Under the pieces are notes generated by a model, which made no database searches, had not been told where the DNA came from, and saw only the letters and a list, made by a program, of their open reading frames with translations. Positions 15,707 through 53,182 of a stretch of 53,645 bases of DNA are shown piece by piece. The translations under genes were made by a program, and so were the position numbers. This stretch comes from Deltaproteobacteria bacterium (GTDB lineage Bacteria > Desulfobacterota > Binatia > UBA9968). The stretch is from positions 1-53,645 of the forward strand of contig SHYW01000025.1 in the NCBI GenBank assembly GCA_009692615.1. The letters are read 5' to 3'. How positions within the stretch are numbered: position 1 is the first letter of the stretch; each line of letters starts with the position of its first letter.

Positions 15707-17233
15707 TCACCGCACCTTCATATTCCAACCGAAGATGCGCTCACTCGGCAGCGGCCGGTATTCGACGTTCTTCGCCATGCCGAAGAGCAACTGGTGGCGC
15801 CAGAGAAAATGCGCCGGCGCTTCTTCCGTAATGAGGCTCATCGCTTCGGCCAAAGCCTTCTTGCGCTTGACGGGATCGAAGGTTTGCCGTTCTTGCTTGA
15901 GCAGCTCATCGACTTTGGGATTGGAGTAACCGATGCGCGGCGAGCCGCCGGTTTCAAAATATTGCGCCAAGGCGGCGCTGGGATCGACCACGCCGCCCCG
16001 GCCCATGTAGTAGAACGGCACTTTCCCTACTTGCACATTTGCCCACAGAGTCGCCCACTCCGGAGTGGCGAGCTTGGCGCGAAATCCCCCGGCGTTGAGC
16101 ATGGGAATCATCGCTTCGCTCAGCTGCTTATCCAGCGTGTAGCGCCCCACCGGAGTTTGCAATTCGACGTCGACGCCGTTTGGATAGCCGGCTTGCTTTA
16201 ACAGTTCCTTGGCCTTTTCCGGATTGTAACTGTACTTCGGTTGCAGGCTGGCATCGTAGCCGTACTGCCCTTCGCCGATGGGCCCATCGAGGCGCGACGC
16301 TTCGCTGCGCAGAATCGTCTTGATGATCGTATCGCGGTCGATGGCGTAGGCCACCGCTTGGCGCACCAGTTTGTTATCCCAGGGTTTGATCTTCGGCATC
16401 ATCGCTAAAAACATCAGTTCCGCGCTGTGAAACTTGACGATCTTGTGATTGGCGCTGCGCTCGACGCGCTCGCGCAGATGCGGCGGCACGAACTGGGCGA
16501 TTTGGATCTCGTTATTCAATAGGGCCGTCACCCGTTGCTCCGGTTCGCGCATGATGCGAAAGACGATTTCATCGGGCGCCTGCGGATACTGCTTCCACAT
16601 CGGATGGGACTTATCTTTGCCGATCACCAAGCGCTGTCCGGGAATCAGTTCGCGGAACTTGTACGGCCCGGCACCGAAGGGATACTGCTTGTCGGCGATC
16701 TCCGGTCCATGCTTATCGTAAAGATCTTTGCTGGTGACGATAATCCGGTCGAAGAGATAATCGAGCAGCGGCGCGGTGGGAATTTTCGTCGTGACCTGAA
16801 CGGTGTAGTCGTTGAGCGCCTTCTCGCTCGCCACCGCCGAAATGTTTTGCACCTGCTTGCTCTGCGGGTCATTGCGCGTGCGGCCCATGGAGTGGACGAT
16901 GTCGTGCGCCGTGACCGGCGTGCCGTTGTGAAACTTGAGCCCTTTGCGCACGTGGAACAGCCAGTTGTTGGGATCCTTGACCTCCCAGCGCTCCAGCACC
17001 AAGCCGACATGCTGACCCTTGTCGAAATCGTAGGTGCCGAGACAGCCCAGCACCTGGCACCACACGCTGTACATCAGCGACACGCTGTCGGCGTAGGGAT
17101 TGAACGTATCCATGGTTTCCGTGACGCCGATGGATATGCGCGTCTCAGCCGCGCCGCTTGTGTTCGCCGACAACCCAAGCGCAACCGAAAACCCAAGCGC
17201 AATCACCAACAACCTAAGACTCCCCTGCTTCAT
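15707..17233 (-). CDS. Oligopeptide-type solute-binding protein (SBP_bac_5), copy 2
   Basis: This 508-residue family-5 extracellular binding protein is related to OppA, DppA and NikA. A signal peptide (LLVIALGFSVALGLSANTSGA) precedes TRISIGVTETMDTFNPYADS. Family segments include ERWEVKDPNNWLFHVRKGLKFHNGTPVTAHDIVHS and VRQAVAYAIDR. The ATG at 17233 has AAGGAG. It lies 13 nt after a tandem paralogue and most residues match it. No permease or ATPase follows. The ligand is unknown; peptides, nickel chelates and other compounds are bound by relatives. Confidence 0.9.
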   Translation of the reverse strand: MKQGSLRLLVIALGFSVALGLSANTSGAAETRISIGVTETMDTFNPYADSVSLMYSVWCQVLGCLGTYDFDKGQHVGLVLERWEVKDPNNWLFHVRKGLKFHNGTPVTAHDIVHSMGRTRNDPQSKQVQNISAVASEKALNDYTVQVTTKIPTAPLLDYLFDRIIVTSKDLYDKHGPEIADKQYPFGAGPYKFRELIPGQRLVIGKDKSHPMWKQYPQAPDEIVFRIMREPEQRVTALLNNEIQIAQFVPPHLRERVERSANHKIVKFHSAELMFLAMMPKIKPWDNKLVRQAVAYAIDRDTIIKTILRSEASRLDGPIGEGQYGYDASLQPKYSYNPEKAKELLKQAGYPNGVDVELQTPVGRYTLDKQLSEAMIPMLNAGGFRAKLATPEWATLWANVQVGKVPFYYMGRGGVVDPSAALAQYFETGGSPRIGYSNPKVDELLKQERQTFDPVKRKKALAEAMSLITEEAPAHFLWRHQLLFGMAKNVEYRPLPSERIFGWNMKVR

Positions 17234-17246
17234 AGATTCTCCTTTG

Positions 17247-18767
17247 TTACTTAATCTTGATGTTCCAGCCAAAAATCCGCTCGCTGGGGAGCGGCGCGTA
17301 ATCGATGTTCTTGGTCATGCCGAAATAAAGCTGATGGCGCCACAGAAACGTCGCCGGCGCCTCTTCGTTAATCAAGCTCATCGCTTGGCCGAGGACTTTC
17401 TTACGCTTCTCGGGATCGAAAGTCTGGCGCTCCTGCGATAACAGCTCGTCTAGTTTCGGATTCGAATAGCCGATGCGCGGCGAGCCGCCGGTTTCGAAGT
17501 ATTGCGACAGATAGGCGCTTGGATCGACAACGCTGCCGCGGCCCATGTAGTAGAACGGCACCTTGCCCACTTGGACGTTGGCCCAAAGCGTCGCCCACTC
17601 GGGCGTTACCAGCTTGGTCCGAATACCGACGGCCGTAAGCATCGGCACCATCGCTTCGTTGAGTTGCTTGTCGAAGGTGTAACGATTCACTGGCGTAAAA
17701 AGTTCGACATCGAGGCCGTTGGAAAAGCCAGCTTGCTTCACTAGCTCTCGGGCTTTTTCCGGATTGTAAATATGGCGCGGCTGAAGGTTGGGATCGTAGC
17801 CATACATGCCGCTGGCGACCGGGCCCTCCAGACGGTCGGCTTCGCCGCGCAGGATTGTTTTCACGATCATTTCACGGTCGATGGCGTGCGCCACCGCTTG
17901 GCGCAAGAGCTTGTTGTCCCAGGGCTTAAACTTCGGCATCATCGCCAGAAACATCACCTCGGCGCTGTTGAATTTGACGATCTTATGTTTGACGCTGCGC
18001 TCAACCCGCTCGCGCATATGAGAGGGCACGAACATGGCGATCTGAATTTCGTTATTGAGTAGCGCCGTCACTCGCTGCTCCGCCTCGCGCATGATGCGAA
18101 AGACGATTTCATCGGGCGCTTGCTTGTGCTGCTTCCACATCGGATGGCGCGGATCTTTGCCGATCACCAGCCGTTGGCCGGGAATCAATTCTCGGAACTT
18201 ATACGGCCCGGCGCCGATGGGATACTGGCGGTCGGCCACATCCGGACCATACTTGTCGTAGACCGCTTTGCTGGTGATGATGATCCGGTCGAAGAGATAA
18301 TCGAGCAGCGGCGCGGTGGCCTCCTTGGTGACCACTTTGACGGTGTAGGTGTCGACCACACTCTCGCTCGCCACCGGGGCGATCAATTGGCGCTGTTTAC
18401 TGTACGGATCGTCGCGCGTGCGCCGCAGCGAGTGGACGACGTCTTCGGCAGTGACCGGCGAGCCGTCGTGGAAGCGATTCTCTTTCTTTAGATAAAAATA
18501 CCACGTCTTCGGGTCTTTGGTCTCCCAGCGTTCGACGAGCAGGCCAACGTGTTTCCACTGCTCGAAATCATAAGTGCCCAGGCAGCCCAGAACCTGGCAC
18601 CACACACTGTACATCAGCGACACGCTCTCCCCATAAGGATTGAACGTCTCCATGGTTTCGGTGACGCCCACGGAGACGCGGGTCTCAGCGGCCGTCGTCT
18701 TGGCAACCCCGGCTAACGCCAAAATCACGGCGCACACGGAAATAAATCTATTCGTATAAAATTTCAT
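17247..18767 (-). CDS. Oligopeptide-type solute-binding protein (SBP_bac_5), copy 1
   Basis: This 506-residue tandem paralogue of the next gene shares nearly the same core (VSVGVTETMETFNPYGESVS, LLRQAVAHAIDREM) and the same C terminus, with PLPSERIFGWN. The signal peptide spans about residues 1-27. The start at 18767 has GGAGGG. It is probably cotranscribed with its paralogue, and possibly with the NMT1-type SBP and carboxyltransferase genes upstream. The pair looks like a recent duplication that could give two related ligand ranges. Confidence 0.9.
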   Translation of the reverse strand: MKFYTNRFISVCAVILALAGVAKTTAAETRVSVGVTETMETFNPYGESVSLMYSVWCQVLGCLGTYDFEQWKHVGLLVERWETKDPKTWYFYLKKENRFHDGSPVTAEDVVHSLRRTRDDPYSKQRQLIAPVASESVVDTYTVKVVTKEATAPLLDYLFDRIIITSKAVYDKYGPDVADRQYPIGAGPYKFRELIPGQRLVIGKDPRHPMWKQHKQAPDEIVFRIMREAEQRVTALLNNEIQIAMFVPSHMRERVERSVKHKIVKFNSAEVMFLAMMPKFKPWDNKLLRQAVAHAIDREMIVKTILRGEADRLEGPVASGMYGYDPNLQPRHIYNPEKARELVKQAGFSNGLDVELFTPVNRYTFDKQLNEAMVPMLTAVGIRTKLVTPEWATLWANVQVGKVPFYYMGRGSVVDPSAYLSQYFETGGSPRIGYSNPKLDELLSQERQTFDPEKRKKVLGQAMSLINEEAPATFLWRHQLYFGMTKNIDYAPLPSERIFGWNIKIK

Positions 18768-18879
18768 AGACCCTCCGTCCAACCTGGTTACGATTCTATC
18801 CTGACAAACTCTAATTTTTCTCCTCCGCGGTTCTCCCCACTGTCAATGTGAATCGCCACGCCATTCATCGACCGGCGAC

Positions 18880-22772: not shown

Positions 22773-22786
22773 AGCTACCTTTCCTC

Positions 22787-23875
22787 TCACAAAGCGTACA
22801 GAGCCTTGGGGTTGTGGCAGAGAATTTTTTCCTTCACCGCGGGAGCGATCCCTTCGAGCCGGTTAAACTCCGTGATCGCATCGATCTCGCTGGCCGAATC
22901 GGTGTGGCCGTAGTCGGTGCCAAGGACCAGGCGGTGCTCGCCCGCATAGTTGAGAATATGGGGAATGTTGTCATTGGTCTGGCAGGTGACATAGACGTTG
23001 TATTCACCAAACACGTCTTTAGAAAACTGTCTCCCGGTCGAACGATAGCGAATCTCCACCTCGCGATAGATCCAGGGTATCCACTCGGCTGAAGCTTCTA
23101 TAAAGCCCCAGTGCAATTTCGGGATGAGCTGCGTCACCTCACTCATAAAATGGCTAAAACATGCGGCCACAGTGGGCACCCGGAACATAGCCACCGGGCT
23201 AGCCGGAGTAGAACGGTAAAGATCGCAGTAATCGCGATTGCCATTGGCGATATGCACGGCGATAGCCATGTCGAGCTGATCCGCGGTTTCGTAAAGCGGG
23301 TAGAAATAAGGGGCCGTGAGGTGACGTCGCCCCTCTTCCAGCGGTCTGAGACAGACCGCGACGGCGCCGTTTTGCTTTGCCACTTTGACCTGCGCGATCG
23401 CCTCGTCGATCACCATCGTCGGAACGACACAGGACCAGCGCAATCTTCCTTGACTTTGCCGCCAGATGTCGCCGAGCCAGCGGTTCCAGCTCCGGCATAG
23501 CGCAGCCTGGACGTCGGGATGCTGCGACACCTGCTCGATCCACATGGTGTTGTGCAACACCTGAATGTCGATGCCCAGCTCGTCCATGTGCTTAAGTCGC
23601 AATCCGACATCGTGCAACTCGCGAGCGCCCTGTGGAGTTTCGACATTACGGCCGATTCTTTCCGACATGGTCTGGAGCTCGCGCTCACTGAGCGTCAGGA
23701 ACCGAACGCCGGCGATTTTTCCGTCGACGACCCAGTACTGCCGCGGGTTATTCGGGCTAGAAAAAAGCTGCGGGCGATATTTCTCTTCGGCGGGCTCCAG
23801 GTAATCCCATGTGCGCTCGGTTTCGAGCACATGGGCGTCGGCATCGATGACCGGCAAACCATTTAGGTTGGACAT
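22787..23875 (-). CDS. Amidohydrolase family 2, paralogue of the 317-1402 gene
   Basis: This 362-residue amidohydrolase is a close relative of the one at 317-1402. It shares VIDADAHVLETERTWDYL, RLKHMDELGID, GFIEASAEWIPWI and GTDYGHTDSASE. Metal ligands are expected in DADAH and GTDYG. The start at 23875 has GGGAGGGGA directly upstream. It is followed at once by the SBP gene at 22772-21801, forming a two-gene unit, whereas its paralogue at 317 has no SBP partner. Confidence 0.88.
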   Translation of the reverse strand: MSNLNGLPVIDADAHVLETERTWDYLEPAEEKYRPQLFSSPNNPRQYWVVDGKIAGVRFLTLSERELQTMSERIGRNVETPQGARELHDVGLRLKHMDELGIDIQVLHNTMWIEQVSQHPDVQAALCRSWNRWLGDIWRQSQGRLRWSCVVPTMVIDEAIAQVKVAKQNGAVAVCLRPLEEGRRHLTAPYFYPLYETADQLDMAIAVHIANGNRDYCDLYRSTPASPVAMFRVPTVAACFSHFMSEVTQLIPKLHWGFIEASAEWIPWIYREVEIRYRSTGRQFSKDVFGEYNVYVTCQTNDNIPHILNYAGEHRLVLGTDYGHTDSASEIDAITEFNRLEGIAPAVKEKILCHNPKALYAL

Positions 23876-50893: not shown

Positions 50894-51217
50894 TTACTTT
50901 GCGAAGGCAGCCTTGAGCATCGGCTCGAGCTCGCCGCGCTCGTGCAGCTCGTGCACGATGTCGCAGCCGCCGACGAACTTGCCGTCGATATAGATTTGCG
51001 GAATCGTCGGCCAGTTGGCATAGCGCTTAATCCCATCCCGCACCGCCGAGTCGGCGAGCACATCGTCGCTGGCGAAGGGAAAACCGTAGGACTTGAGAAT
51101 TTCCACGGTGTGGGCGGAAAAGCCGCACTGGGGAAAATCCGGCGTGCCCTTCATGTAGACCATCACCTTGTTGTTCTTTACCTTGTCGTCGATCTTCGTC
51201 ATGACATCTTCGGCCAT
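50894..51217 (-). CDS. grxD: Monothiol glutaredoxin, Grx4 family
   Basis: This 107-residue monothiol glutaredoxin has the CGFS active site at 31-34, then [28 protein letters not shown]. Such proteins bind a [2Fe-2S] cluster with glutathione and partner with BolA in iron-sulfur delivery. The start at 51217 is preferred since AAGGAGACAG lies upstream and homology begins there. It follows the bolA gene by 37 nt in the same orientation, the usual pairing. Confidence 0.95.
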
Positions 51218-51254
51218 AGTTCTGTCTCCTTTTTTGAAAATTGTATCCGAAATG

Positions 51255-51509
51255 TTAAGCACCGAGCTTCTGCCACTGCGCCGGACTATAAGTCTTCAAA
51301 GACAGCGCATGAATGCGTTGATCGGCCAGCGGCACTTTCAAGACTTCGTTGATCATGCGGTGCTGTTCCAACAGACCTTTGCCTTCGAAGGCGGGCGAAA
51401 CGATGATCACCTGCCAGTGATCGCCACCGCCGGTCAAATCCTGGGTTTCAATCACTTCAAGGGGCAGCGCCTGGGATAGCGTCTGTTTAATCTCTTCGGG
51501 AGTAATCAT
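51255..51509 (-). CDS. BolA family protein
   Basis: This 84-residue BolA-fold protein contains [31 protein letters not shown] and [17 protein letters not shown]. The conserved histidines in HRM and RIHAL are the likely cluster ligands when paired with monothiol glutaredoxin, which is encoded next. Fusion or adjacency of these two genes is common and supports a joint role in iron-sulfur trafficking. Confidence 0.93.
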
Positions 51510-51569: not shown

Positions 51570-52073
51570 CTAGCCCACCGGCCCTTCGTAGTCCGGTCGA
51601 ACTTTGCGCAACATCGCGCGCAAATCAGCGCGCAGCTCATCCAAAGTAGGCCGGCCTAAGTACCAATAGCCGTTGTAGAGGTTGTGAATCGTCAGATCCG
51701 GCATGAGGGAAAAAGTATGCGGCATGGCGGTCACGCCCATGCTCTTGGAAGTCTCGGTCATGTCGAGCAGCTTGACGACCTTGCGCTCCTGATCGCTCAA
51801 GAACGGAAACTGCGCGCCGAGTCCGGTGCGGAAGGCATCGTTGATATCCGGCGAATCGACGCAGCAGACAGCGAGTTTGCAATAGTTTACCGCTAATTCT
51901 TTTTGTAGTTCGACGTAATGGCGCAACTGCACCTGGCATTTGGCTCACCAGTAGCCACGATAGAAAGTTAGAATGAATGGAAACTTGCCGACCAACTCGG
52001 ACAGTTTCACCACTTGGCCGTCTTGATCAGGCAATTCGATGTCGGGAAAACGGTCGCCGATTTTTAGGTTCAT
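51570..52073 (-). CDS. Peroxiredoxin-like (AhpC/TSA) probable selenoprotein with U-x-x-C
   Basis: The frame from ATG 52073 (GGAGG upstream) encodes NLKIGDRFPDIELPDQDGQ and FPFILTFYRGYW, then meets TGA at 51945-51947. It continues without shift as AKCQVQLRHYVELQKELAVNY to a normal end at 51570. In this Prx-like family FYRGxW is followed by CxxC, and the TGA sits exactly at the first cysteine. Read as selenocysteine it gives W42-U43-A-K-C46 and a 167-residue protein of normal size. A small hairpin follows the TGA (51924-51942) with GG in its loop, though closer than usual for a bacterial SECIS. A nonsense mutation is the alternative. Confidence 0.8.
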
Positions 52074-52117: not shown

Positions 52118-53113
52118 TTATGGATAGCGCTTGGCCATCTCGCCAAAGAAACCCTCTTTGTCCAACTGTTGAAGCAGCGACAAGTCGACAAACTGCTCCG
52201 GCTTGGCGCTTTTCGCTTGAGCCACCTTGGGCGCTACTTCGTCGAGCAGATATTGAATGCCTTTCAACGTTGGATAGGGCCGTTTGGCGACTCGTTTGAC
52301 GAACCAATCGACGGTGGCGTCCAAAACATCTTGTTCGTTGGTGCGCATGTACTTGCCGGCGATGCGTTTCGCCTCGTCGCGGTTGCGGCCGATGAAATAA
52401 ATCGCTTCGACGTATGACTTGAGCGCGCTTAGGGCAATCTCGCGTTGACTGCGAATAAATCCTCGCGAAGTGGCAAAACCATTGCCCTGCACTTCGACGT
52501 TGAGTTCGAGCATGTCGTAAACTTCGACCAAACCCTGGCGGCGCGCCCGCGGCAACTCCGACGGCGTGAGGATGGTCGCTTCGATGCGGCCCGATTCCAC
52601 CGCGCTCAATCGCTCCATGGTCGGTCCGGCGACGACCAGCGCGACATCTTTGCTTGGTTCGAGGTTGAACTTTTTAAGTAGAATTAGCGAAGCGTTATGC
52701 GACGCCGAGCCGAAACCGCTGACGCCAAGCTTTTTGCCCTTGAGCTGTTCGACGCGGCTGATGCCCGGCCGCGCGACTACCGAATAATTATACGCCGACT
52801 CCGACGACGCGATCAGCACGATGTCGTGGCCCTGCAAGCCGGCTTGTACCACGGTACCAATGTTGACGATGGGCGGATCGCCGGCGACCAACGCTTGCGT
52901 TGCTATCTGGCCGCCGCGAAAAAAAATCACTTCGGCATCGAGGCCGTGTTTGCGGTAAATGCCGGCGTCTTTGGCGATCCAAATATGAATCTGATTGTAA
53001 GAGATGGCCGGGTAGCCGATCTTTATTTTCTTGAGTTCTTGGGCGTCGCCAGCACCAAGCCACAAAGTCGCGATCAGCGCGATGAAAATGAGATCGGTGG
53101 AAAACTTCAACAT
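52118..53113 (-). CDS. ABC-type substrate-binding protein (NMT1/THI5-like)
   Basis: This 331-residue exported binding protein has signal peptide LKFSTDLIFIALIATLWLGAGDA, then KIKIGYPAISYNQIHIWIAKDAGIYRKHGLDAEVIFF and GKKLGVSGFGSASHNASLILL. ATG 53113 fits the signal best; a GTG two codons earlier is possible. It is the fifth exported NMT1-type SBP in the window and again has no permease or ATPase neighbour. Confidence 0.87.
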   Translation of the reverse strand: MLKFSTDLIFIALIATLWLGAGDAQELKKIKIGYPAISYNQIHIWIAKDAGIYRKHGLDAEVIFFRGGQIATQALVAGDPPIVNIGTVVQAGLQGHDIVLIASSESAYNYSVVARPGISRVEQLKGKKLGVSGFGSASHNASLILLKKFNLEPSKDVALVVAGPTMERLSAVESGRIEATILTPSELPRARRQGLVEVYDMLELNVEVQGNGFATSRGFIRSQREIALSALKSYVEAIYFIGRNRDEAKRIAGKYMRTNEQDVLDATVDWFVKRVAKRPYPTLKGIQYLLDEVAPKVAQAKSAKPEQFVDLSLLQQLDKEGFFGEMAKRYP

Positions 53114-53182
53114 GGTCACCCCGTCAAGTTAAGGGTGCTCTCGGTAGGCGAAAAAATTTTGCTGAATATACGTACGGTACGC

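Follow-up and report, generated by a model that had tools for sequence, protein, structure and literature searches.

Prx-like thiol:disulfide oxidoreductase selenoproteins with a PF00578 domain and a UxxC or UxxU motif are catalogued in Table 1 of a 2026 review (PMC13188914), and Prx-like selenoprotein families were described earlier (PMC2398784, PMC1088965). The protein analysed here combines a PF00578 domain with UxxC and thus, going by that table, belongs to a known general kind. An initial annotation of the sequence had called U-x-x-C Prx-like proteins an established bacterial selenoprotein type, in agreement with the same table. Compared with the description of these oxidoreductases (published representative WP_010940744.1), the protein resembles them in having an AhpC/TSA domain and a UxxC motif that begins with Sec, and UxxU rows occur in its family too. 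In contrast, the family has a set of invariant residues of its own, among them a GRP(T) motif at the C terminus, it contains UxxD and CxxD/E members, and in the order of the bacterium the gene is neighboured by bolA and grx4.

The best NCBIfam match by E-value is the SelL-related redox protein NF040769. The score of 35.8 bits stays far below the 120 required for membership of that family, and none of the NCBIfam cut-offs was reached by the protein or by six relatives (seven members tried). SelL carries a two-Sec motif, of which the UxxU rows of the present family are reminiscent.

The names UxxD and Binatia were not found in the main text of PMC13188914. No paper on UXXD selenoproteins was found, a groundwater-MAG selenoproteome survey standing outside that comparison; none on a selenoprotein-BolA-glutaredoxin operon was found judging by titles and abstract openings, and none among the matches listed joined a selenoprotein with the name Binatia or Binatota. 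The gene would add an order-wide selenoprotein to what appear to be Candidatus Binatia bacteria. Binatia proteins are reported from sediment metaproteomes of a Columbia River study, according to a passage of PMC11264602.

An in-frame UGA in a peroxiredoxin-like gene

The window (the whole stretch of 53,645 nt that was analysed) contains the following features, all on the minus strand:

52073..51570, minus strand: coding sequence of the probable Prx-like selenoprotein, 167 aa with Sec43, stop TAG, match to PF00578
51947-51945, minus strand: UGA codon, very probably Sec, residue 43; TGA in 30/30 same-order loci and in 51/60 family rows
51936..51938, minus strand: codon of Cys46, second position of UxxC, aligned to the active-site Cys of 2cx3
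51933-51920, minus strand: SECIS-type hairpin GGUGC-AGUU-GCGCC, predicted from folding and covariation
52085-52081, minus strand: ribosome-binding site GGAGG, 7 nt 5' of the ATG at 52073
51255..51509, minus strand: BolA-like protein, first gene downstream (PF01722, 62 bits, cut-off 25.7)
50894..51262, minus strand: monothiol glutaredoxin of the Grx4 family, gene three of the cluster (TIGR00365, 140 bits, cut-off 117.1)

A single in-frame TGA interrupts the frame of 167 codons (residues 1-167) in the context LTFYRGYW-U-AKCQVQL, with W42 in front and A44-K45-C46 behind. The open frame on both sides, FYRGYW before and AKC after the TGA and a good ribosome-binding site had all been reported in the initial annotation and were verified, the strand having been left unstated there. 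The read-through product contains an AhpC/TSA domain (PF00578, 74.1 bits vs. a cut-off of 26), while an ordinary gene caller would probably end the protein at residue 42. Rfam at gathering thresholds matched no family in the whole window.

Homologues were searched in 97 genomes (own, genus, family, order and class), of which 35, own included, belong to the same order. A close homologue is present in 30 of the 35, again counting the own genome, the other 29 being 55-90% identical. The gene is missing from G006, G010, G013, G031 and G034, four of which are less than 90% complete. All 30 loci have TGA at the codon of residue 43.

A wider family set comprises 60 rows, namely the window and 59 of the 68 loci from one peptide-pattern scan of genome contigs. 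Nine loci were excluded: L077, L078, L098, L129 and L131 are truncated or fragmentary, and L134-L137 are short and were not read as family. Where readable, the excluded loci carry Sec (L077, L078, L129) or Cys (L098). L132, with a frame that breaks short of its end, was nevertheless retained among the Cys rows. Codon 43 is TGA in 51 rows and TGC/TGT in nine. As the scan patterns came from close relatives, Cys forms from farther away have probably been missed in part, which biases the Sec share. The alignment with Cys homologues proposed initially as a check hence yields what is taken as criterion for a bacterial selenoprotein, i.e. UGA at a conserved redox position with Cys in relatives.

Judged by substitution patterns, the half of the gene after the TGA is under purifying selection. 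Mean pN/pS is 0.17 after the TGA vs. 0.22 before it (nine close rows, 36 pairs), and dN/dS of the downstream half amounts to 0.04-0.15 in seven of eight window pairs, those that were computable. Six stops were counted in frame 3' of the TGA, six rows being UxxU, whereas the two remaining frames contain 285 and 217. If the gene were a Cys gene, decaying or intact, hit by a nonsense mutation or misread in sequencing, this would account for the in-frame stop itself and for nothing else. Such an origin is contradicted by this selection and by the TGA in 30 of 30 order loci as well as by the frozen silent sites and the co-varying hairpin described below, and we consider it scarcely conceivable.

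The initial annotation had further argued that a random stop would hardly fall on exactly that codon with the rest left intact. What raises the gene above chance is its homology, which is decisive, together with the conserved codon and the RNA hairpin; openness alone is common, as 49 places in the window passed a mechanical open/TGA/open scan. The selenoprotein gene is not among these 49 because its upstream stretch of 242 codons has a GC3 of 0.43, below the filter's 0.45. Another TGA-spanning frame (22775-23497, plus strand) gave no Pfam family at E 0.01 and was dropped.

An open frame is also all that speaks for an altered code, with UGA being read as Trp or another residue throughout the organism. 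This reading is next to incredible given that 18 of 40 long ORFs, called mechanically in the window and without overlap, terminate in TGA, that TGA is the own final stop in several family members and that Cys codons are the sole replacement of TGA among the 60 rows.

UGA might also be a true stop, either with the halves made as separate products or with mainly the short product made and readthrough occurring rarely. At UGA, termination is in competition with decoding, and a GTG start lies past the stop at 51932; both would fit such a reading. Against it, the two halves form one Prx fold in the structural model, eight of nine Cys rows are single unbroken proteins while the ninth, L132, breaks far downstream, and the own genome encodes tRNA-Sec and SelB. 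A true stop is therefore regarded as very improbable.

Hairpin and selenocysteine machinery

Decoding of UGA as Sec is consistent with the RNA following the codon. The bSECIS consensus as given in PMC13188914 demands an apical loop of 3-9 nt on a stem of 4-16 bp, a G within loop positions 1-2 followed mostly by G or U, a distance of 16-37 nt from UGA to the apical loop and a free energy of ≤ -7.5 kcal/mol. The hairpin at 51933-51920 lies within all of these limits: it has a 5-bp stem and the 4-nt loop AGUU, the loop begins 16 nt past the UGA, and the 42 nt that follow the UGA fold with a minimum free energy of -8.0 kcal/mol. A different hairpin (CAA-A-TGC, loop CAGGT, GCA-G-TTG) had been proposed in the initial annotation. 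Its loop is only 9 nt past the UGA and thus too close, and it is not the conserved one. It was rejected, as the minimum-energy fold and covariation favour 51933-51920.

Codons +5 to +8 (GTG CAG TTG CGC) are invariant in 23 of 23 Binatia-type rows, with silent sites elsewhere being near saturation. All five pairs are kept, with compensatory changes, in each of the 42 Sec rows that have the hairpin at the window position. The UxxD rows (n=15) show different yet complementary stems in the same place with the same AGUU loop, and four Rokubacteria-type rows have 5/5 pairs with a loop of 6 nt. Among the nine Cys rows one keeps five pairs (loop AGAU), one keeps four and seven keep three or fewer. Since Sec genes keep the hairpin and most Cys genes have it broken, the two groups represent a natural control for SECIS function.

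The pairing was compared with 500 shuffles for 33 distinct rows; as these are related, the counts may go back to a small number of independent changes. Paired cells make up 100% of 165 (64.1% shuffled), cells with both sides changed number 44 (13.9 shuffled), and covariation is 0.779 (0.172 shuffled). None of the 500 shuffles matched any of these three values and every slide was lower. Two of the five measures, pairs with double change (4 vs. 3.9) and pair types (6 vs. 6.1), show no excess over shuffles. RNAalifold predicts the identical stem unaided.

In the UxxU lineage (nine rows) 6 or 7 of 7 pairs are found in a hairpin ~14 nt farther downstream, picked from folds of the same nine rows and taken without shuffle control. 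It looks as though the hairpin had been moved to suit the second UGA. The UxxU members L100, L105, L106, L107, L109 and L111 have two UGAs three codons apart along with this displaced SECIS-like hairpin, which the single-Sec relatives L108, L112 and L116 share.

Searching the genome for selA, selB, selD and tRNA-Sec had been suggested from the start, and all four were found over cut-off. In the own genome, which is 98.7% complete, selA, selB and selD adjoin on contig C70 while tRNA-Sec (74.9 bits, tca anticodon) is located on C142. The selD gene (G000:C70:1609-2535, L067) has itself one in-frame TGA and thus probably encodes a Sec-containing SelD; an in-frame TGA occurs in 32 of the 33 over-cut-off selD matches of the order, the exception being a fragment.

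For the 30 gene-bearing genomes of the order, part of the search being run with stricter filters, selA is over cut-off in 27, selB in 25 and selD in 27, and tRNA-Sec exceeds 65 bits in 24. G009, a MAG rated 100% complete with the TGA gene present, has none of the four over cut-off. G014 has tRNA-Sec only, without selA, selB or selD over cut-off, and a selD fragment is the only match of the machinery in G002. In G016, which belongs to the genus of G009, all four genes are located on one contig, as are selB, selD and tRNA-Sec in G024. G009 is therefore most simply read as having one assembly gap, which could explain its missing Sec genes. Of 39 further genomes tested, 29 have a Sec row and 10 a Cys row. 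A selA match passes the cut-off in 25 of the former, leaving four of these more distant genomes without one, and in 7 of the latter. Hence the Cys forms do not simply result from loss of the machinery.

Taken together, the conserved TGA, the four Sec genes, the co-varying hairpin, the purifying selection and the AhpC/TSA domain support the initial proposal that UGA is decoded, and this uncultured bacterium very probably reads the stop codon of the gene as selenocysteine. Judged by this comparative evidence, SelB and Sec-tRNA-Sec would bind the AGUU-loop hairpin 3' of UGA43, whereupon Sec would be inserted.

Fold, active site and second redox position

The AlphaFold2 model, calculated with Cys for Sec, has a pLDDT of 92.9 and a pTM of 0.89. 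In the structure search, and with Foldseek too, its top solved matches are BCP/PrxQ and AhpE peroxiredoxins, which it resembles in fold with Z of about 20-22 at 18-25% identity.

The active site of peroxiredoxins reads P-x-x-x-T/S-x-x-C with a conserved peroxidatic Cys, and in thioredoxins the attacking Cys is at the first position of the motif. Aligned to 2cx3, residue 46 corresponds to the active-site Cys, residue 43 to Ser and R39 to Pro. Unlike 2cx3, the protein thus has R39 and Sec43 in place of Pro and Ser, and its family has C, U, D or E at position 46, such that the motif of peroxiredoxins proper is absent. The alignment therefore places the invariant redox residue at the position of the attacking Cys of thioredoxins and leaves the peroxidatic position free to vary. 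The initial annotation had located the TGA at the expected catalytic Cys. A conserved redox residue is indeed affected, but it is the thioredoxin-type first position, the peroxidatic one being C46. In the structure-based alignment, which took 42 of the 60 rows, residue 43 (Sec/Cys), R39, G40, K45, Y64, G140, R141 and P142 are invariant, among others.

By motif the 60 rows divide into UxxC (30), UxxD (15), UxxU (6), CxxD (7) and CxxE (2). Relatives with CxxC, as had been assumed initially, do not appear among the nine full-length Cys rows, which are CxxD or CxxE throughout; moreover, L098 and G077 read CPRD and G065 reads CPKD. According to record labels the rows stem from Binatia, Deltaproteobacteria, Rokuibacteriota, Acidobacteria and Chloroflexi, moreover from Actinobacteria-type, Poribacteria, Planctomycetes-type, SAR324 and other records. 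In the UxxD members (L097, L099, L102, L104, L115, L117, L121 and L125 among the 15) Asp replaces the second Cys; their records are labelled Acidobacteria, Poribacteria, KSB1 and others. A quick tree, from which no direction was inferred, implies at least five changes at the first and at least five at the second position. Viral contigs gave 90 pattern matches, none of them a relative by tblastn.

With residue 43 fixed at the thioredoxin position and residue 46 variable, we infer that Sec is the nucleophile and C46 the resolving residue. Sec43 would attack from the first position of UxxC, directly before helix 44-60, and C46 would resolve it via an internal selenenylsulphide. In relatives with Asp or Glu at position 46, resolution would have to come from another thiol, most simply an outside one. 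The likeliest activity would be reduction of peroxide or disulphide with electrons from thioredoxin or a glutaredoxin/thiol donor. The natural series of C, U, D and E beside a fixed Sec would show the role of the second residue.

A second AhpC/TSA protein with in-frame TGA (FYRGYWUPFC) is located at G000:C5:57003-57464 (L068:3004-3465, plus strand). It is ~36% similar to the window protein over part of its length and probably represents another Prx-like selenoprotein.

The BolA-Grx4 neighbourhood

Gene order was evaluated in 28 testable loci of the order (30 minus two that end too close). In 26 of them bolA lies within 2 kb downstream on the same strand, and grx4 follows directly after bolA in 19 of these 26. 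As to the other two, bolA is 4.4 kb away in G019 and none is near in G007, where bolA/grx4 and the selenoprotein gene are on different contigs. In family f3 (G026-G030, G032, G033) bolA is near the gene in 7/7 genomes and grx4 is directly after bolA in 0/7; in each of the seven it sits on a different contig or is separated by 30 kb or more.

Based on gene order, these order-limited neighbours thus make a functional tie of the selenoprotein to iron-sulphur handling possible. Somewhat less firmly than the chemistry above, the selenoprotein might keep BolA, the CGFS glutaredoxin or iron-sulphur clients reduced. It may even be asked whether redox control of the BolA-Grx4 iron-sulphur node, and not general peroxide or disulphide reduction, is the main job of the same selenoprotein. 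The frequency of nearby bolA and of adjoining grx4 in the order would agree with this, as would f3, where bolA stays with the gene although grx4 is elsewhere in all seven genomes. However, of 23 genomes that belong to the class but not to the order, 20 have bolA and grx4 side by side (with a partial grx4 match in G047), and no close homologue of the selenoprotein gene was found in these 23. The pair is hence independent of it. Moreover, no BolA or Grx was found in the flanks examined, some of them short, of 40 more distant loci, and synteny inside one order may be mere shared ancestry. Such a main job therefore seems rather unlikely, if worth keeping in mind.

On the whole, the best explanation is in all likelihood a Prx-fold selenoprotein with Sec at UGA43, to which the chemistry and the BolA/Grx tie would be added as conjectural parts. 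Going further, the protein might represent the UxxC branch of a subfamily, so far undescribed, that spans phyla, mostly uses Sec, has lost the peroxidatic Cys (Asp in whole lineages), carries Sec at the thioredoxin position and, in the order of the window, acts as redox partner of the BolA-Grx4 node. We put this forward as a tentative proposal that as a whole has the odds against it.

On its other side, 45 nt upstream of the selenoprotein gene, the window encodes an NMT1-type substrate-binding protein (52118-53119, minus strand). Some relatives have a short-chain-dehydrogenase-like match in its place. Elsewhere in the window the frames 15707-17272 and 17247-18782 (minus strand) have very similar starts and are likely tandem duplicates.
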